From: Hymenobacter lucidus
GTDB taxonomy: Bacteria > Bacteroidota > Bacteroidia > Cytophagales > Hymenobacteraceae
Reading direction: 5' to 3'
Length of the DNA stretch: 64,000 nt
NCBI RefSeq assembly: GCF_020447265.1
Contig: NZ_JAJADR010000003.1
Location: 496,001 to 560,000 of the forward strand
Made by a program: the position numbers and the translations under genes. The notes under the pieces are model-generated. The model ran no database searches, was not told where the DNA came from, and saw only the letters and a list, made by a program, of their open reading frames with translations. Shown here piece by piece: positions 22,866 through 31,024 of this stretch (its first letter is position 1; each line of letters begins with the position of its first letter).

Positions 22866-24404
22866 TTACTTCCAGTCTGGGAAAGATGCGTTTTGAAATA
22901 AACGGGTGCGGTTACGACCGTCCAAATCCATTGTCCATATTTCTGGTGCCGACTGGTTGTCATTACTCATATTAACAAATATTACTTTAGCCCCGTCTGG
23001 TGAAAACCTGGGGAAGAGGTCGTTAGTACCAGCGGGCTTACCATTATTTGTAGTTGAGCCGGAAGGGGCGGCCGATAAATCAACTGTTCCGGTACCGTCG
23101 GGGCGCTGCATTATAATATGAGCGTTAAGTTGGCGGCCGTTGGCATTCTCGTAACCGTCTAAATCGCGGCTATATAATAGCATGCGGCCGTCAATACTAA
23201 ACGAAGGCGAATCGAGACGACCGGGCAGGTTTCCCAGTACCTGCGTCAGGCCGGTACCGTCTGCATTCAGGGTATAGAGTTCGGAATCATACGGATTGGA
23301 GCCAACAGTTTGCACCAGTATCTTATTGCCCTGGGCGGTCCAGTCACACTCGCGGAAATGGCGGCCGTTGGGCGCGGTAGCCAGCTGCACCAGCCCGGTA
23401 CCATCCCGATTGATGCGCCAGAGCTTGTCGTAGCTGGCATAGATGAGCTGTGACCCATCGGGCGACCAGTGGTAGCCAATGCCAAAGTTGTTGTAGCCTT
23501 CTACCGGCACCATATCCGGCGTAATCTGCCGCTGATCCGAGCCGTCCCGATTCATAGTGTAAAGCTGATAGCGCCCGGTAGCATTGGAAGTATAGGCTAT
23601 GCGAGTACGCACGGGGCTCAACTGGGGGGCAGTTTCAATAAAGGCTGAGTTGGTCAGGCGCAGCAGGCTGCCCCCGGCGTTATCCGACGAATAGATATCG
23701 GTGTTGCCATTCACTTGGCGGGCGTACAAGAAGCGGTTGTCGGGCAGCGGGCCGGTTTGGAAGCTCCACACGTCGCCTCGCACAGTTTCGCCGGCCTTGT
23801 CCCGCACCGTTACCTGCCAGAAGTAAGTGGTATTATACTTCAGGTCGGTAACGGCCACGGCCGTGTCCCGGGCACTGGTCAGCAGCTGCCGCCGGTCGAT
23901 GGAGTTGCTTTCAAACAATATCACATCCGACTTCAGCGAGTCGGTTTTGTCGGGGTCGGTTACGCGCCAGCGCAGCGTGAGGTTGATAGGCTGACTGCTC
24001 GCTCTATCGGCCGGGCTAGGATTCGACGGCGCATTGGGTCGGCGGTTGGAGCCGCTGGCTTTTTCCAAAGGAATTCGCACCGCAGTCAGAATTCCCTCGT
24101 CTACCTGCACATTTACATTTTCGGTTTTGTAGTCCGTTTTCTTCACCGAAATGGCATATTTGCCCGTCACCACATTGGGCAGGTAAAATTTACCTTCGGC
24201 ATCGGTAGTAAAGGACGAGGTAGCCGGGTTCGTCGTTATGACGGCATTGGCCAGTGGGGCATTGTTACTACTGGCATCCAGCACAATGCCTTCCAGGGAA
24301 CCATAGCGCACCGGCTCAATTGTATCATCTTCACAAGCCAATAACACCTGCCCTAGCAATAGTATCAGCAACAGGCGGCAGACAGGGCGCAGAGAGAGGA
24401 GCAT
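22866..24404 (-). CDS. Lipoprotein with carboxypeptidase-regulatory-like, FN3-like and TolB-like propeller domains
   Basis: 512 residues from the ATG at 24404 (MLLSLRPVCRLLL), which places a lipobox LLAC at residues 20-23; the longer frame to 24449 would bury the signal. After the lipid-anchored Cys come a carboxypeptidase-regulatory-like domain (about 35-115; GSLEGIVLDASSNNAPLANA), a FN3-like domain with NPSPADRA...LTLRWRVTDPD (about 120-220), and a six-bladed TolB-like propeller of PD40 repeats (about 225-512; SPDGSQLIYAS, DGRMLLYSRD, SPDGAKVIFVN). The last gene of the minus-strand series that includes the csg genes; 72 bases downstream of the csgH-like gene. A periplasmic or surface scaffold role in amyloid assembly is conceivable but not shown. 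Confidence 0.8.
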   Translation of the reverse strand: MLLSLRPVCRLLLILLLGQVLLACEDDTIEPVRYGSLEGIVLDASSNNAPLANAVITTNPATSSFTTDAEGKFYLPNVVTGKYAISVKKTDYKTENVNVQVDEGILTAVRIPLEKASGSNRRPNAPSNPSPADRASSQPINLTLRWRVTDPDKTDSLKSDVILFESNSIDRRQLLTSARDTAVAVTDLKYNTTYFWQVTVRDKAGETVRGDVWSFQTGPLPDNRFLYARQVNGNTDIYSSDNAGGSLLRLTNSAFIETAPQLSPVRTRIAYTSNATGRYQLYTMNRDGSDQRQITPDMVPVEGYNNFGIGYHWSPDGSQLIYASYDKLWRINRDGTGLVQLATAPNGRHFRECDWTAQGNKILVQTVGSNPYDSELYTLNADGTGLTQVLGNLPGRLDSPSFSIDGRMLLYSRDLDGYENANGRQLNAHIIMQRPDGTGTVDLSAAPSGSTTNNGKPAGTNDLFPRFSPDGAKVIFVNMSNDNQSAPEIWTMDLDGRNRTRLFQNASFPDWK

Positions 24405-24476
24405 AAACGAAAAGGAATGGGCGGGAAAGAACGGAGAAGAGCGGCGCACAGCGTTTAAAGCTTATTTCAGGCGGTT

Positions 24477-24869
24477 TCAGGGGCGGCTACCGGGCTGATG
24501 AACCAGAGAATCCTGAGCAACCAGGGTGCCCTGCAGATCCAGCACCCGCAGCTGCACCCGGTAAAAATCAGCGGGAGCTACGTTGATGGTGGTCTGCGAC
24601 AAAGTAGCTGTCTGCTGCGGGGCTACCGTAAAGTTGCCGGACTGCGCGTTGCGGGAAGTACCGGACTTGCCCTTTTTATCGGTCAGCAGCTCGTAGCGCA
24701 AAGTCAGGGGCTGAGTGCCGGCATTCTGGCAGTGTCCAATGAGGGTTAACTTGTCGCCCTCCAGCCGCGACTCCAACTGGGCCCGACAGCCTGCTTCGTG
24801 CGCCGCCAGCCGCCCCTGCCAGAGCATAGCCCAGAACGGCAGCACAGTAATAATCCAATGAATTTTCAT
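24477..24869 (-). CDS. csgH: CsgH-like curli chaperone
   Basis: 130 residues: a signal peptide (MKIHWIITVLPFWAMLWQG, cleaved near AAHEAG) and one small Ig-like beta-sandwich. The pattern CRAQLESRLEGDKLTLIGHC...LTLRYELLTDKKGKSGTSRNAQSG then FTVAPQQTATLSQTTINV and YRVQLRVLDLQGTLVAQD fits the CsgH fold, which in other bacteria holds CsgA monomers in the periplasm and prevents early fibre formation. Two cysteines (near residues 28 and 47) could form a disulfide. The position just after a csgB-like gene supports the assignment; similarity was judged by eye only. Confidence 0.78.
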   Translation of the reverse strand: MKIHWIITVLPFWAMLWQGRLAAHEAGCRAQLESRLEGDKLTLIGHCQNAGTQPLTLRYELLTDKKGKSGTSRNAQSGNFTVAPQQTATLSQTTINVAPADFYRVQLRVLDLQGTLVAQDSLVHQPGSRP

Positions 24870-24978: not shown

Positions 24979-25566
24979 TCAAGGCTGGGTAGCCACCCGG
25001 CCCTGCTCAATGATGATCTTGATACCGTTACCTTTCATCGTAACCTCGTAGCCAGGCGTAGTGCTGCCGGTTTCGCGCTGAATCAGATTGTTGTTGTTGC
25101 CCATTTGCTCCACGCTGTAGCGCCGCTCATCCACGTTGAGTTGCTGGTCAACCCGGTTGCCATTGCCCCGCTGTGTGATGTCCGACTCAGTATTATAGCC
25201 ATTCACCTCACTGGCGGCCACGTTGTTGGCGCCCGACTGCGTAATGGTAACCCGGCCGCCAGCGCCATTCTGCAGGATGGCGGCTGCGTTGCCCATCCCA
25301 TTCTGGCTGATGATGGCCGCATTGCCCCGCCCCACTCCTATCATGTGCTGGTCGATGCTGGCTTGGTTGAGCGAGCCTTGCTGCTGCAGCGTAGCCTGGT
25401 TGGTAAGCAAAGTAGCCTCTGTGGCGTTACCCGATTCGTTGCTTAGCTGCTGCACCAGCAGTTGGCCAGTACTGGTATCCTCAGGGTCGCGGCCCGACTG
25501 GGCTTGCACCTGCTGGCCGCTCAAGCAGAGCAGAACCAGCACGTTGGTAATAAGTGCTATTCTCAT
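24979..25566 (-). CDS. csgB: CsgB-like minor curlin (nucleator candidate)
   Basis: 195 residues from the ATG at 25566 (MRIALITNVLVLL), which gives a signal peptide ending near VQAQ; the frame upstream to 25644 is not needed. The mature part has about five loose curlin repeats with the A-xx-Q-xG-xxN pattern (NAAIISQNGMGNAAAILQNGAGG; VTITQSGANN; SDITQRGNGN; YSVEQMGNNNN) flanked by less regular sequence, and a charged C-terminal segment (KGNGIKIIIEQGRVATQ). Fewer and less regular repeats than the two upstream curlins, and the non-repeat ends, resemble CsgB, which anchors and nucleates CsgA on the cell surface. The CsgB role is inferred from this contrast. Confidence 0.78.
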   Translation of the reverse strand: MRIALITNVLVLLCLSGQQVQAQSGRDPEDTSTGQLLVQQLSNESGNATEATLLTNQATLQQQGSLNQASIDQHMIGVGRGNAAIISQNGMGNAAAILQNGAGGRVTITQSGANNVAASEVNGYNTESDITQRGNGNRVDQQLNVDERRYSVEQMGNNNNLIQRETGSTTPGYEVTMKGNGIKIIIEQGRVATQP

Positions 25567-25712
25567 AGGTGTAGAAGAGTAAATGCCGGTTGAAAAAGAA
25601 GATAGATAAATACCAATGAGCCGTATGAGCGGTGAAACGCGCATATCAGCGCTATAAAAATAAGGTTATTTTTTAATAATAAAATACAAATAAATAATTT
25701 ATTTATCCTCTA

Positions 25713-25792: not shown

Positions 25793-26767
25793 TTATGGGT
25801 GGTTCTGCTTTACTACGCTGGTGTTGTTGTTGCCCGTCTGAGTTACGTCACTGCTGTTGGAGCTGGCTCCCTGCCAAGTGTCGGCCTGGTTGCCCACACC
25901 GGTCTGAATCTGCCGGGCATAGTGGCCGTCGCCATCCTGGTCGATGTAGGCGCGGTTGCCGACACCGCCGATGCTGTTGCCTTGCGTCTGGATGGCAATG
26001 TTCAGGTTGCCTTCCTGCTCGATGGTAGCCCGCTGGTTGTCGCCGTTCTGCGCCTGGGTGGCTTTGTTGGTGTTGCCCAGCTGGTTGATGGAAGCCACGC
26101 TGCGGAAGCTGCCGTCGTAGTTGCCGCCCTGGGTTTGGGTGGCTTCGTTAAAGGAGCCGTTCTGAATGGCGGTGGCCCGGTTTTCAACGCCGCGCTGGTC
26201 TTGGCTGCTCTTGTTGTAGTTGCCGGTCTGGTCGATGGTGGCCTTATTGTCGTTCGTACCGTAGCCCGAGGCGGCGTCGTGCTGTATCTGCCGGGCTTCG
26301 TTGTAGTCGCCGCCCACCTGCCGTACCGTAGCCTCGTTGCGGCTACCGTCGCGCTGCTCCTGATACGAGGTGCTGTGGCCGCTCAGCTGCGTGGCCGTGG
26401 CCTTGTTGCGCTGTCCAATCTGGAGCTGGGTGGCCGTGTTACCATCGTCGCTAGGCGTTCCGTCGCCCTGGGTTACGGTAGCCTCGTTGCGCGAGCCGTA
26501 CTGCGACTGAGTCGATTTGTTGTCGTCGCCCCGCTGGCTGGTAGCAGCCGTGTTCAGGGTGTTGCCGTAGCCGGCAGCGGCATCCTGGGTCTGGGTCAAC
26601 TGGTTGTTGTTGCCATTTTGAATACCTGTGGCTGTACTGAAGCTGCCCGACTGCGTGACGGTGCCGCCGTTGCCGTTGCCACTCTGCGACAACGACTGTG
26701 TGTTATTCTGAGCATGAGCGGCGCCTGCTACCAGCAGAGCGGCCGTTAGTAAACCGAAGTTTTTCAT
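25793..26767 (-). CDS. csgA: CsgA-like major curlin 1
   Basis: 324 residues: signal peptide MKNFGLLTAALLVAGAAHAQ, then roughly twenty short curlin repeats of 10-12 residues, mostly of the form (N)xAxxxQxGxxN, for example NKATIDQTGNYN, NRATAIQNGSFN, QRATIEQEGNLN. This is the amyloid-forming repeat of CsgA; each unit would give one beta-arch rung. It has about twice as many repeats as E. coli CsgA (five repeats of two half-units). Several units are expanded by inserts containing Gly/Tyr/Asp (QDAAAGYGNTLN, QHDAASGYGTNDN). The C-terminus (SSNSSDVTQTGN, SVVKQNHP) is shared with the next paralogue and may be a cap or secretion signal. Exported through CsgG in the same locus. Confidence 0.9.
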   Translation of the reverse strand: MKNFGLLTAALLVAGAAHAQNNTQSLSQSGNGNGGTVTQSGSFSTATGIQNGNNNQLTQTQDAAAGYGNTLNTAATSQRGDDNKSTQSQYGSRNEATVTQGDGTPSDDGNTATQLQIGQRNKATATQLSGHSTSYQEQRDGSRNEATVRQVGGDYNEARQIQHDAASGYGTNDNKATIDQTGNYNKSSQDQRGVENRATAIQNGSFNEATQTQGGNYDGSFRSVASINQLGNTNKATQAQNGDNQRATIEQEGNLNIAIQTQGNSIGGVGNRAYIDQDGDGHYARQIQTGVGNQADTWQGASSNSSDVTQTGNNNTSVVKQNHP

Positions 26768-26944: not shown

Positions 26945-27889
26945 CTAGGGGTGGTTCTGCTTCACAACGCTGGTATTCAGGTTGCCCGTCTGGGTCACGT
27001 CACTGCTGTTGCTGCTCATGCCCTGATAGGTATCGGCTTGGTTGCCTACGCCGAGTTGGGTCTGCCGGGCATAGTGGCCGCCAGCATCATCCTGGTCGAT
27101 ATAGGCGCGGTTGCCGGGCAGCACCAGGTCAGTGCCGGCACTCTGGTTCTGAATAGCGGTGCTTCCGTTGCCCGACTGCTCAATCTTGGCATCCTGGTAG
27201 TCGTACTGCTGCGTCTGGGAAGCAATGTTGCTGTTGCCGATCTGCTCGATGGAAGCCGTCGAGAACCAGCTGCTCGAAGGATTGGTGCCCTGCGACTGGC
27301 TAGCCTGGTTGGAGTTACCCAACTGATAGATGCTTGCTTTGTCGCTCAGACCCCGCTGATACTGGGTAGCGGAGTTGCCCGAGCCGAGCTGGGTTATATA
27401 GCCTTGCTGCGAGCTGCCAATCTGGGTTTGGGTAGCCGTGTTGCCTTCGCTGGAGCTCTGGAACACTTCCCCGATATGGTCGCTGCCCGTCTGGGTCTGG
27501 GTAGAGGTGTTGGCCCCGCTCAACTGCTCGGCCTTGGCGCTGTTCCGGTCGCCCGACTGCGTTTGAGTAGCCGTGTTGCCATTGTCCAGCGGAATACCGT
27601 CGCCCTGCTTGATATAGGCCGTGTTGGAGTTACCGGTCTGCGTCTGAGTCGACGTCTGGTTATTGCCGCGCTGCAGCGACGTAGCCGAGTTCGAAGCGCC
27701 ACCCGATTGGGTTTGCGTCAGGGCGTTGTTGTTGCCCAGCTGGGTGCCAACGGCCGAGCTGGAGCTACCTGATTGCGTAACGGTTACGGCATTAGAATTA
27801 CCCGTGGACGTTGAAGATTGAGTGTTATTCTGGGCATAGGTCGTGCCGGCAACCAATAGTGATGCCGCGAGGAAAGAAAGCTTTTTCAT
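26945..27889 (-). CDS. csgA: CsgA-like major curlin 2
   Basis: 314 residues, a paralogue of the curlin at 25793-26767. Signal peptide MKKLSFLAASLLVAGTTYAQ, then roughly twenty curlin repeats (NNALTQTQSGGAS, NTATQTQSGDRN, QASQSQGTNPSS, STAIQNQSAGT), richer in Thr/Ser/Gln and with fewer charged residues than its partner. The C-terminal 55 residues are nearly the same in both (NRAYIDQD..GGHYARQ, GVGNQAD, SSNSSDVTQTGN, SVVKQNHP). It has its own well-matched promoter and terminator, so the two subunits can be made in different amounts. Which is the main fibre protein cannot be decided from sequence. Confidence 0.9.
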   Translation of the reverse strand: MKKLSFLAASLLVAGTTYAQNNTQSSTSTGNSNAVTVTQSGSSSSAVGTQLGNNNALTQTQSGGASNSATSLQRGNNQTSTQTQTGNSNTAYIKQGDGIPLDNGNTATQTQSGDRNSAKAEQLSGANTSTQTQTGSDHIGEVFQSSSEGNTATQTQIGSSQQGYITQLGSGNSATQYQRGLSDKASIYQLGNSNQASQSQGTNPSSSWFSTASIEQIGNSNIASQTQQYDYQDAKIEQSGNGSTAIQNQSAGTDLVLPGNRAYIDQDDAGGHYARQTQLGVGNQADTYQGMSSNSSDVTQTGNLNTSVVKQNHP

Positions 27890-28131: not shown

Positions 28132-29544
28132 TTAAGGAATCAGGCGGCTTTGGGGTGTGGTAGTGGCACGCCCCAGATAGAACACCAAGCCCGCTTTAGC
28201 AGCCCAAAACGAGTCGTTGTATTTACCCAACTTTATATGATCAAGCTTATCGGTCATATAATAGTGATTATCAACACCTAAGCTTATTCCAAAATTATTA
28301 TTGGGCAGAAACTCAACGCCCAAGCCAGTGGTAATATGCCCCAGTACCAAGCGCATATCCGAGGAACGATTACGTGAGGTGATGCCCGCGCCGGCGAGTA
28401 GGTATGGCGTGAACCGGTCGCGGGGAAAGAGCCGGTACAGGCCGCAGAGCTCAGCGTAATTAAAAGTTTCGCGGTAAAAGTCGCCCGCTGCCAGCTCGAA
28501 CCGCCCAATGTTAATGGCGGCCGAAAGCTTATTGTCGGCGGCTCGGGCGTAGCGGATGGTCAGTTCACCTCCGCCCCGTAGCTGCGGGCTGCTGAAGTCG
28601 CCGTTGTAGCGCACCGTAGCCGCGCTTAGGCCCAGGCCCAGCGTGCCCCGGCGGTCCTGCTGCACCCGGCCCAGCACGTCGATATCTTGGTTTTCGCGCT
28701 TTTCCTGCTGGTAAGCTACCATAGCGGGCCCGTTGCGGTCGGCTTCGTTTTGTGGTACCCAAAGCCGCTCCTGAATGCCTTCGAACACCAAAGCTTCTAC
28801 GGCTTTCTCAATGGCTTCCTTCACAGCCATTTCGGTGGGTTCATTATAGGTAAAGCCGGTTTCGGTTTCGAGCAGGCGCTTAAAATCCACAAACCGGAAC
28901 AGGCTGGCATCGACCTGCTGCGAGAGGATGGTTTTGGAGGTGTACACGGTTTTGAGAATTTCGCCGGTACTGGTGCTAATAGCCCGCAGGTACACCGTTA
29001 CCCGGTCTTGCCGGTACTGGCCCGAGGCCCCGGCCCCGAAGTAGCGCAGACCCGCGCCGCCGGTTATCATGTTGGCATCATAGGAAATAATGCCGCCCTC
29101 CAGAATGATACCGGCAAAGAGCAGTGAGGGTAGCATGGGCTGGCGCTGCCCGGTTTGCTCCTGGTACTCGGCCCGGCTCGAGCGGATAATTTTGCGCTCA
29201 TTAAGCAGGTTGCCCAAGTTTTCACGCTCGATGGGGTTAAACCAGCGCGACTCTTCCAAGGCCCGCAGCAGAATGCTGGTGCCGCCCTGGGTAATGGCCG
29301 TCGAGAAGCTGGAGCCGTTCTGACTGGGCTTGTACTGCCCGGTCTGGTCTCGAAACTTGTAGACGGCCGCTACAATCCGTTCCCGGGGCTGGGGCAGGCG
29401 GCGCAGCTCCTGGCTGGCCCGGATATCGGCGCCGAGTCGGGCCTTTTCGGCCGTGAAGGGTTGGTGAAAGTACGGGGCGCAGCCAGCCACCCCGCCCACT
29501 GCCAGCAACGCCAGCAGCAAACGACGACAAATAGCAAGAAGCAT
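28132..29544 (-). CDS. csgG: CsgG-type curli secretion channel with an extra C-terminal barrel-like domain
   Basis: 470 residues. Outer-membrane lipoprotein that forms the ring-shaped pore for curlin export. The N-terminus has a lipobox ending at Cys22 (VGGVAGC). Residues about 23-285 match CsgG: VAAVYKFRDQTGQYK, STAITQGGTSILLRALEES, WFNPIERENLGNLLNERKIIR, LEGGIISYDANMITGGAG, and the YFGAGASGQYRQDRVTVYLRA membrane hairpins. E. coli CsgG is 277 residues; here about 185 residues follow (about 286-470) with alternating strands and Tyr/Phe-Gly motifs (GLGLSAATVRYNGDF, ELCGLYRLFPRDRFTPYLLAGAG, GLGVEFLPNNNFGISLGVDNHYY, AKAGLVFYLG) that look like an eight-stranded OmpA/OprF-like barrel. It lies 21 bases after csgF. 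The extension is the notable feature. Confidence 0.9.
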   Translation of the reverse strand: MLLAICRRLLLALLAVGGVAGCAPYFHQPFTAEKARLGADIRASQELRRLPQPRERIVAAVYKFRDQTGQYKPSQNGSSFSTAITQGGTSILLRALEESRWFNPIERENLGNLLNERKIIRSSRAEYQEQTGQRQPMLPSLLFAGIILEGGIISYDANMITGGAGLRYFGAGASGQYRQDRVTVYLRAISTSTGEILKTVYTSKTILSQQVDASLFRFVDFKRLLETETGFTYNEPTEMAVKEAIEKAVEALVFEGIQERLWVPQNEADRNGPAMVAYQQEKRENQDIDVLGRVQQDRRGTLGLGLSAATVRYNGDFSSPQLRGGGELTIRYARAADNKLSAAINIGRFELAAGDFYRETFNYAELCGLYRLFPRDRFTPYLLAGAGITSRNRSSDMRLVLGHITTGLGVEFLPNNNFGISLGVDNHYYMTDKLDHIKLGKYNDSFWAAKAGLVFYLGRATTTPQSRLIP

Positions 29545-29565: not shown

Positions 29566-30006
29566 TTAGAAGTAGGGAATCGTGACGGTGGTCTGGTTTC
29601 CCGTGTTCGAGTCGGTTATCTGCACCGAGAAGCCGCCGCTAGTGGGCACTACATTAATGTTATAGGCGCCTACCGAATAGCTACCCTCCTGCAGGCCCTG
29701 ACTCTGGCTACCCAACTGGTTGCCAATCAGGCGCTGGGCCAGCTGACCCAGAATCTGCTGGTTCAGGTTTTGCTCAAACTGCTTGAGTGGGTCCTGCTGG
29801 AAGGGGTTGCTGGAAGTGGAAGTAGCTGGGTCGGCAATGGTATTCTGGGCCTGGGCCGAACTGAGCATCCAGGCATAGTTGAAAGTGTTGCCGCCCCCAA
29901 AAGAAGGGTTTTTGGGCTCGTAGACGAAGTCCTGGGCGGCGGCCTGACGAGTACCGAGCAGCCCCAGGGCCAGCAGCAGCACCCAGCGGAGTAGGGCTTG
30001 ATTCAT
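29566..30006 (-). CDS. csgF: CsgF curli assembly protein
   Basis: 146 residues. CsgF binds the outer face of CsgG and couples CsgB to the cell surface. Signal peptide ends near RQAAAQ; the mature start DFVYEPKNPSFGG and the following LSSAQAQN match the E. coli CsgF N-terminus (F-x-x-x-NP-x-FGG then SAQAQN), the part that inserts in the CsgG pore. The C-terminus carries the GSYSVGAYNINVVPTSGG and TVTIPYF beta strands of CsgF. It is placed between csgE and csgG, with gaps of 31 and 21 bases, so one transcript is likely. Confidence 0.9.
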   Translation of the reverse strand: MNQALLRWVLLLALGLLGTRQAAAQDFVYEPKNPSFGGGNTFNYAWMLSSAQAQNTIADPATSTSSNPFQQDPLKQFEQNLNQQILGQLAQRLIGNQLGSQSQGLQEGSYSVGAYNINVVPTSGGFSVQITDSNTGNQTTVTIPYF

Positions 30007-30037: not shown

Positions 30038-30676
30038 TCAAAAAACTTCGGTGGGCTGCCGGCCGCCGTGCTGTTCCAAGTTGCGACTATCGTTGCGGGA
30101 TCTTACCAGAAAGTCGGTGGCAACTTCGGAAGCATAGGTGGCCGTTTCCTCAATAACTTCGGCCTTGGGCTGCAGTGGCAGCTCCAGCAGTTCGTTTTCG
30201 TTGACCTCCACCGAAATCAGCGTGCTGGTACCTCGGGCCGGCTTTTCATGAATGATAATGGTAAAGTCGCCCGCTTCTGCCGGGGCCTCCCACAGGCTGT
30301 AGAAGGCGTCGTAGAAATCGTGGCCGACCTTGGTAATCGTCTGGTCCATTACCAGGCCCTCGATTTCGGTAGGCCGAAAGCGGCGGCGCTGGTTGTTCAC
30401 CTGGCTGCTGTCTTTGCTGGTAGCTTTAAGCAAAAGCTGTAAGGCTTCCTCCAGCTTTTTGGCCGGTAGCGGCGCGGCTTCCGACTCTTTCTGCACCCCG
30501 GTTTTACCAGCGGCGGGCTGCTGCTGGGCATAGCTGTTAGTAGAAGCCAGTACGAAAAGCAGCCAGCAGCCCAGCCCCATCATCCAGGGCCGCCACCACA
30601 GCGTCATCAGTACGTGGGGGGAAGGCTGTTTGGAAGTAGAAACTCGGTTTTTTGCCACTGAGACACGATTCTTCAT
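30038..30676 (-). CDS. csgE: CsgE curli assembly protein
   Basis: 212 residues from the ATG at 30676 (MKNRVSVAKNR), which shares the TGCTATGAA start context of csgF; a shorter start at 30607 (MTLWWRPWMMGLG) would give a cleaner signal peptide ending near SYAQ. The mature part holds the CsgE domain (about 95-200): EIEGLVMDQTITKVGHDFYDAFYSLW, FTIIIHEKPARGTSTLISVEVN and ELLELPLQPK. CsgE caps the CsgG channel on the periplasmic side and brings in CsgA. A basic N-terminal extension of about 25 residues is unusual if the longer start is right. First gene of the csgEFG unit. Confidence 0.88.
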   Translation of the reverse strand: MKNRVSVAKNRVSTSKQPSPHVLMTLWWRPWMMGLGCWLLFVLASTNSYAQQQPAAGKTGVQKESEAAPLPAKKLEEALQLLLKATSKDSSQVNNQRRRFRPTEIEGLVMDQTITKVGHDFYDAFYSLWEAPAEAGDFTIIIHEKPARGTSTLISVEVNENELLELPLQPKAEVIEETATYASEVATDFLVRSRNDSRNLEQHGGRQPTEVF

Positions 30677-31024
30677 AGCAATAAGGGCGTTGGTAGAAAG
30701 GAAAAAAGGAGAGAAATGCTCAAAGCACATGAAAAAGCCATGTCTGACTCATCAACCTATTTTGCGGAATAAACTTAATTCTTTAAAAGAATAATCCAAA
30801 GACAATCAACTTATTTTTATAAAAAAATTTAATGAAATGTTTATATAAAATAAAAATATTGCGCCTACTGTTCGTCAGGCGGCAATTCGTTCTACTTCAG
30901 ATGCTGACAGCAACTAATACAGCCCATCAGGAAGGCAGAGAATCAAGTCAGGCGGGGAATTACAGCACACTAAAGCAGCCCTGAACGAAGCTCAAGAGCC
31001 TGGCAGCTCGAAAAGAATGGGAAA
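30677..31024. promoter_or_regulatory. AT-rich upstream region of the csgEFG unit
   Basis: About 350 bases with strong A/T runs (for example 30810-30860) between csgE and the GspS-like gene. It must carry the csgE promoter. The best -7-like match on the minus strand is TGTCTTTG (30804-30797), one base off TAnnTTTG, with no clear -33. I find no csgD-like gene and no other coding sequence here. Confidence 0.4.

Follow-up and report, generated by a model that had tools for sequence, protein, structure and literature searches.

The curli channel CsgG of E. coli serves as a model for insertion into the outer membrane independent of the BAM machinery: according to the accessible part of PMC4973683, it inserts under BamA depletion, when OmpA falls by at least 95%. 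Five distinct solved CsgG sequences are found among the PDB matches listed for the protein considered here, and all are of a short form, with 262-285 residues. Desulfobacterota, Nitrospirota and Bacillota are reported to carry curli operons as well (PMC12822426, available text), in a source whose operon survey (section 10) does not treat CsgG length. An earlier operon survey (Dueholm 2012, PMC3521004) states in its accessible portion that CsgG size is unaffected by the size of the subunits, and words beginning with 'barrel' or 'terminal' are absent from its main text as available to us. In the accessible part of PMC4827864, a table puts the length of the CsgG family at 283 +/- 48 residues and includes 'Surface Ag 2' among its domains, perhaps an uncommented trace of the domain described below. 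In the type IX secretion system, the small barrel PorG binds the PorK/N rings, and gingipain activity was not detected in a porG mutant (PMC7463736 and PMC12704123, in part). A ring of porins 'hugs' the outer-membrane channel of the Legionella Dot/Icm system, and the role of the array is called undetermined in the available part of a review (PMC12857230).

We analyzed a window of 64,000 nucleotides from Hymenobacter lucidus, in which csgG (28132..29544, minus strand, as are all features named here) encodes 470 residues with no internal stops: a lipoprotein signal with its cysteine at C22, a CsgG pore domain (approximately residues 36-282), and a C-terminal part that resembles the OmpA barrel. 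The pore domain is canonical when aligned to solved CsgG (residues 36-282, 28699..29439). It matches the Pfam family CsgG (PF03783) over residues 50-265 with an E-value of 3.1e-67 and 226 bits, and a PDB sequence search aligned the protein to solved CsgG with an E-value of 1.5e-67. The closest named relatives are from Hymenobacter, with at most 89% identity in the best segment. For conservation counts we used an alignment (A1) of 63 CsgGs chosen as long forms, the counts from which therefore say nothing on the frequency of the domain; C22 is invariant in all 63 rows.

The neighbors of csgG are csgF (29566..30006; PF10614, E 5e-41), csgE (30038..30730; PF10627, E 2.1e-24), two curlin-repeat subunits of the CsgA/B type (26945..27889 and 25793..26767), a shorter curlin-repeat subunit (24979..25644) for which the role of nucleator would be a guess, a CsgH/CsgC-like chaperone (24477..24869; PF21112, 29.1 bits against a cut-off of 27), and a protein in which domain matches identify a CarboxypepD_reg domain and a PD40 propeller (22866..24449). 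Together these genes place csgG in a curli locus. The CsgH/CsgC-like gene was found although Dueholm 2012 (PMC3521004), in the part available, describes csgC as absent from Bacteroidetes; it has homologues in 33 of 41 named loci. Homologues of the CarboxypepD_reg/PD40 protein (E at most 1e-5), a common domain kind, lie within 8 kb on either side of csgG in all 41 named loci (shorter in three, at 213-221 aa) and also in the csgG stretches of Salinibacter and Spirosoma, and the protein looks like a regular neighbor of curli genes in the phylum.

The sequence-only reading had proposed that this CsgG carries about 185 additional C-terminal residues and that these form an eight-stranded OmpA-like barrel. 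The length was confirmed: the best solved CsgG, of 277 aa, aligns to residues 10-279 of the window protein and other PDB chains extend to 280 at most, which leaves about 185 residues extra, and the interval 28132-28690 encodes residues 286-470 (185 aa). For the fold, support comes from the predicted structures of two family members, from fold matches and from kinship to OmpA-domain proteins of the same genome. AlphaFold2, given the single chain and 63 aligned CsgGs, predicted strands at residues 302-314, 320-332, 340-353, 357-371, 378-391, 400-412, 418-429 and 445-457. From this model, the fold matches and the alternation of the strands, we delimit a predicted eight-stranded beta-barrel domain at residues 298-458 (28171..28653). 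The pLDDT is 86-97 in 14 of the 16 ten-residue blocks of residues 301-460 and 75 in the other two, 391-400 and 431-440, which are loops. Parts of the pore hairpins have pLDDT below 50 in the single-chain models, which we take as the usual outcome when a single subunit of a shared barrel is modelled. The model of the window protein, with a pTM of 0.64, does not fix how the barrel is placed relative to the pore. A relative, L083, with 44% identity to the window CsgG overall and 26% in the barrel, was also predicted to have eight strands, with pLDDT again 86-97 in 14 of 16 barrel blocks. A disordered tail, which had been raised as a possibility together with a soluble one, was looked for in the models and not seen, and we reject it on the strength of the eight high-confidence strands; the soluble form is argued against below.

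Foldseek returned 25 CsgG chains first, followed by NspA (1p4t, E 7.6e-8, TM 0.78 on the target) and then by OmpA, Ail, OmpW, OprF and OmpX. VIA-align gave Z scores of 16-19 over approximately residues 297-464 for porin III, OmpA, NspA, OprF and OmpW, led by Legionella porin III (9nh2) at 19.3, with OmpA at 17.8 and NspA at 17.7. Every barrel that it matched with Z of at least 13 is either an outer-membrane protein or a membrane barrel made by design; soluble barrels appear lower (8ah9 at 12.4, 6ohh at 11.9, PsbO chains at about 10). PagL (Z 15.5) and PagP (Z 11.8) are also among the fold matches, as would suit an enzyme of that type acting on lipid A near the pore. Across the 63 rows, however, neither His nor Ser is ever invariant in the barrel, where the invariant residues are Pro, Gly and Asp, and we rejected this explanation, to which we attach next to no probability.

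We asked which family the barrel belongs to. The Pfam family OMP_b-brl (PF13505) matches the window CsgG at residues 298-433 with 17.8 bits, below its cut-off of 28.7, and 36 of the 63 alignment rows match it at E of at most 0.01. We built a profile (A2) from 62 barrels, leaving out L019 as a near copy of L016, and searched it against the window's own genome. All three of the best non-self matches (5.3e-13, 1.4e-11 and 2.8e-6) carry OmpA and TSP_3 domains, and the next (9.0e-5) is a tandem of PorG-type genes. These type IX secretion barrel genes lie at 164-1063 and 1105-1854 of locus L118 and score 119 and 174 bits against NF052316, whose cut-off is 130. Among 39 other genomes of the class, the profile found matches at or below 1e-8 in five: one OmpA-domain protein (also DUF6089), two PorG-like proteins that score under the cut-off for PorG, a barrel followed by a LysM tail, and a barrel that stands alone. 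The window CsgG itself scores 24.9 bits against NF052316, far below the cut-off, and Surface_Ag_2 matches one of the 63 rows; among those rows neither the weak PorG match nor the lone Surface_Ag_2 match names a tighter family. Taken together, the OMP_b-brl matches and those in the window's own genome and the class indicate that the extension is a small barrel of the OmpA/PorG kind. We also looked for barrels encoded separately next to short CsgGs. None was present in loci L001-L111 (survey loci of 2.8-8 kb); a barrel match was seen in 14 frames other than CsgG, all of them from loci fetched through the barrel searches themselves.

A measure of membrane character is the alternation of side-chain transfer energy along the strands. 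With energies averaged over the alignment, the mean difference was 1.49, compared to 0.61 (sd 0.16) in shuffles, and none of 5,000 shuffles reached it; the strand at 357-371 barely alternates (0.35). The transfer scale was of the Moon and Fleming type. Judged from sequence, most barrel strands appear to alternate a lipid-like and a polar face. The hydrophobic face consists mainly of L, A, F, V, Y, G and I; its polar counterpart is rich in Gly and holds most charges, with D, E, K and R making up 19% of the polar face and 5% of the hydrophobic one, a contrast that is partly by construction because the faces were assigned by hydrophobicity. By analogy with OmpA, to which the domain is related, rather than from coordinates, we infer that the polar face is directed inward. 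We looked for higher conservation of the polar face in the 63-row alignment and found the difference to be slight (entropy 2.40 bits, against 2.53 for the lipid-facing positions). Strand 8 lies within two residues of the C-terminus in only 11 of the 63 proteins, and 4 of these 11 finish with an aliphatic or aromatic residue, so the textbook terminal insertion signal is not general. That the domain recurs in 62 further CsgGs of the alignment (though these were picked for having it), that eight strands are predicted with high confidence, and that the shuffles fall short together indicate more than chance; a fusion of frames or other artefact was rejected on the ground that the 62 homologues carry the barrel in one frame.

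These data bear on whether the domain could instead be a soluble, periplasmic eight-stranded barrel that aids CsgE or chaperones the curlin subunits. Such a position would agree with the C-terminal region of CsgG, which faces the periplasm and whose C-terminal helices are contacted by CsgE (review PMC12822426, available part), and some soluble barrels do match the fold, at Z 10-12. Arguing in the other direction are the sequence kinship to N-terminal barrels of OmpA-domain proteins, the membrane type of every barrel match at Z 13 or more, and the charge contrast between the faces, subject to the partly constructed nature of that contrast and to the presumed inward orientation. We consider a soluble barrel very unlikely.

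To determine how widespread the long form is, we surveyed 395 genomes drawn from the phylum. A CsgG-family match (threshold 1e-20) was present in 86 genomes and a CsgF match (1e-6) in 41. Every one of the 41 CsgF genomes, which span 12 family labels, has a CsgG open frame of 454-552 residues, and in the 45 genomes with a CsgG-family match and without CsgF no frame exceeds 427 residues. These lengths come from 95 CsgG matches, of which 70 loci were fetched, including all 41 long frames, and the other 25 were judged by their open frame (at most 344 residues); 8 of the 70 (L093-L095, L097, L107 and L109-L111) had no match to the window CsgG core and stand outside the length table. The survey barrels are themselves part of profile A2 (all 41 except L019, with L001 entering as the window protein). 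A profile search is therefore circular for them, and the independent count is that of a single-sequence search. With the window barrel alone as query, a match was found in the CsgG of all 41 CsgF genomes, the weakest at 1.1e-4. The survey of lengths that the sequence-only reading had called for shows the long form to be general in the sampled CsgF genomes of the phylum. The same reading had allowed that the extension might be both ubiquitous and already described; the first part applies to the 41 sampled CsgF genomes, and for the second no description of a barrel on CsgG was found among the listed papers of the open literature, judged by title or opening lines of the abstract, with subscription papers and preprints outside the search. 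Within that search, the barrel domain of curli CsgG is undescribed. The domain is 'extra' only relative to the CsgG of Pseudomonadota; within the phylum it is the norm for the CsgG of CsgF genomes.

Beyond the survey, the 41 named loci all have a long CsgG (458-497 residues), although they were found by peptide patterns, two of six of which came from the barrel, and therefore do not measure its frequency. A CsgG on a Salinibacter plasmid (Rhodothermota; 466 aa) and one on a Spirosoma plasmid (469 aa) both match the barrel. In a tblastn search of plasmids, among the matches listed, query coverage of 80% or more was reached in at least 7 of 47 records, and seven rows, from Hymenobacter, Spirosoma and Salinibacter, have 91-92% coverage. 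A feature confined to Hymenobacter is rejected by the 12 family labels and by Salinibacter. In Pseudomonadota, four CsgGs have 257, 284, 306 and 287 residues and an unannotated frame in Indioceanicola has 356, with a tail of 76; no barrel match was found in any of these five. A separate set of short CsgG-family proteins (239-331 residues) falls under one family label, f18 (L074, L076, L078-L082 and L102-L104); csgE and csgF are absent from the stretch examined at these loci, and CsgF is absent from the genomes at 1e-6.

The association of the long form with CsgF (41 of 41 in the sample) is also what might be expected if the barrel were a surface docking or receptor domain, whose outer loops would bind CsgF, a nucleator or glycans of the surface and organize fibre growth about the pore. 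In favor of such a role, loop 4 has 15-16 residues, among which D432 and D435 are each kept in 61 of 63 rows and G440 and D444 in all. The remaining outward loops are short (5, 2-6 and 3-22 residues), however, and a motif judged by eye to be similar to that of loop 4 occurs in OmpA/PorG relatives with no link to curli, so that it is probably structural. In addition, E. coli CsgF binds inside the CsgG channel, as far as the available text of the source goes. We regard a docking role as improbable. The linker (residues 287-301, 28642..28686), which leads from the CsgG C-terminal helix (273-286) to strand 1, has 14-16 residues in all 63 rows, with R299 in 53 of them. The turns and loops 1, 2 and 4 are also near-constant in length, loop 3 alone being variable (3-22), and yet median identity is 24% in the barrel and 59% in the core. 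Constant lengths at such low identity are more in keeping with a fixed, compact part, such as a membrane anchor, than with a domain for display or a flexible tether.

We compared the history of the two parts of the protein. In a tree built from 44 core domains, a single branch separates the 36 long forms from the eight short ones, with support of 94/94 (slightly below the tool's mark of 95) and recovery in 94% of 200 bootstrap trees. The short forms are the five from Pseudomonadota and three f18 proteins, the latter forming a branch of their own. Distances between cores and between barrels are correlated (r 0.843, reached by 0 of 2,000 permutations). The simplest reading of the grouping and the correlation is one old fusion, inherited with the pore.

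Starting from the computed domain, its predicted fold, its OmpA/PorG kinship and its link with CsgF genomes, we infer insertion into the membrane, a ring of nine, dependence on BAM and an anchoring role. The CsgG protomer, here and generally in the CsgF-bearing curli systems of the phylum, would have two membrane domains, and we think it probable that nine OmpA-type satellite barrels ring the channel and mainly anchor or assemble it. The N-terminal part would be an ordinary lipidated CsgG, contributing four of the 36 strands of the shared channel. From its C-terminal helix the linker of fixed length would lead to the second domain, an eight-stranded OmpA-type barrel whose two ends both lie in the periplasm, and formation of the nonamer would set nine such barrels in the outer membrane around the channel. 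Each protomer would then have a BAM-inserted barrel in addition to its lipid, and the satellite barrels, whose main work would be to anchor and assemble the ring, would keep the pore in place while the growing fibre pulls on it. By a simple radius estimate, nine eight-stranded barrels around a 36-strand barrel would be spaced 31-37 A apart and are 23-28 A wide, and thus a nonamer with nine extra barrels, as the sequence-only reading had imagined, is sterically possible. The porin ring of the Legionella Dot/Icm channel and the binding of PorG to the PorK/N rings serve as precedents for such an arrangement.

One chain with a CsgG-type and an OmpA-type part would have two routes to the membrane. 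The barrel might instead be chiefly a targeting and assembly device: BAM would insert it first, the ring would assemble after, and the finished barrels, perhaps loose, would bear no load. The E. coli depletion result, in which OmpA is lowered and CsgG insertion is left intact (PMC4973683, in part), is consistent with this, as is the report that Bacteroidota and other FCB phyla have their own BAM type (PMC12611786, available part). The fixed linker and compact loops fit it equally well. Against it, the lipoprotein cysteine is kept in 63 of 63 rows, showing that CsgG already has a targeting route. We judge a device chiefly for targeting and assembly unlikely, though the least so of the alternatives weighed here. 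The anchoring function proposed for the satellite barrels has a difficulty of its own: in E. coli, CsgG lacks a barrel and gets into the membrane independently of BAM (PMC4973683, in part), and the pore by itself can therefore do without an anchor. More tentatively, and at a little short of an even call, we propose that Bacteroidota and Rhodothermota secrete curli through a ten-barrel assembly of the outer membrane, in which nine OmpA-type barrels are covalently tied to a 36-strand channel, for 108 membrane strands in all. Its subunits would use two opposite routes of entry at once, with the pore going in by lipoprotein self-assembly and the satellites through BAM, and the fusion would have occurred once, before the lineages split. 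If the CsgG of CsgF genomes throughout a phylum is indeed tied to a barrel of the BAM-inserted type, the BAM-independent insertion model drawn from E. coli would cover only one branch of the CsgG family, and the use of both membrane routes by one chain would become directly testable.

Compared with the CsgG channel (PF03783; PDB 3x2r, 4uv3, 6l7a and 7brm), the window protein is alike in its pore domain (residues 10-280), its csgE and csgF neighbors and its curlin subunits, and differs by the barrel domain added in about 185 C-terminal residues. Its constriction loop (residues 68-80, 29305-29343) is also one residue longer than that of solved CsgG. Three residues of the solved pore, Tyr66, Asn70 and Phe71 as numbered in PMC7304575 (available part), align with S74, S79 and F80. 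The Tyr and Asn are not conserved, and the last position is Phe in 38, Trp in 21 and Tyr in 4 of 63 rows; a constriction altered in this way may be of use for nanopores. The N-terminal barrel of OmpA (OMP_b-brl, PF13505) shares the eight strands and the fold, and OmpA-domain proteins of the same genome are the nearest non-self relatives; the window barrel, in contrast, forms the C-terminus of a lipoprotein pore subunit, lacks a peptidoglycan-binding domain and scores below the Pfam cut-off. PorG of the type IX secretion system (DUF6089, NF052316) is a related small barrel that binds a secretion ring, but as a separate protein, whereas the window barrel is fused to the ring subunit and scores far below the PorG cut-off. 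The porin rings of the Legionella Dot/Icm system (9nh2), of which porin III is the best VIA-align match, resemble the proposed ring in that small barrels surround a secretion channel. Those porins are separate proteins of another machine and their likeness to the window barrel is in fold only (15% identity). The satellite barrels of curli CsgG, if real, would form a covalently attached equivalent of these Legionella porin arrays.
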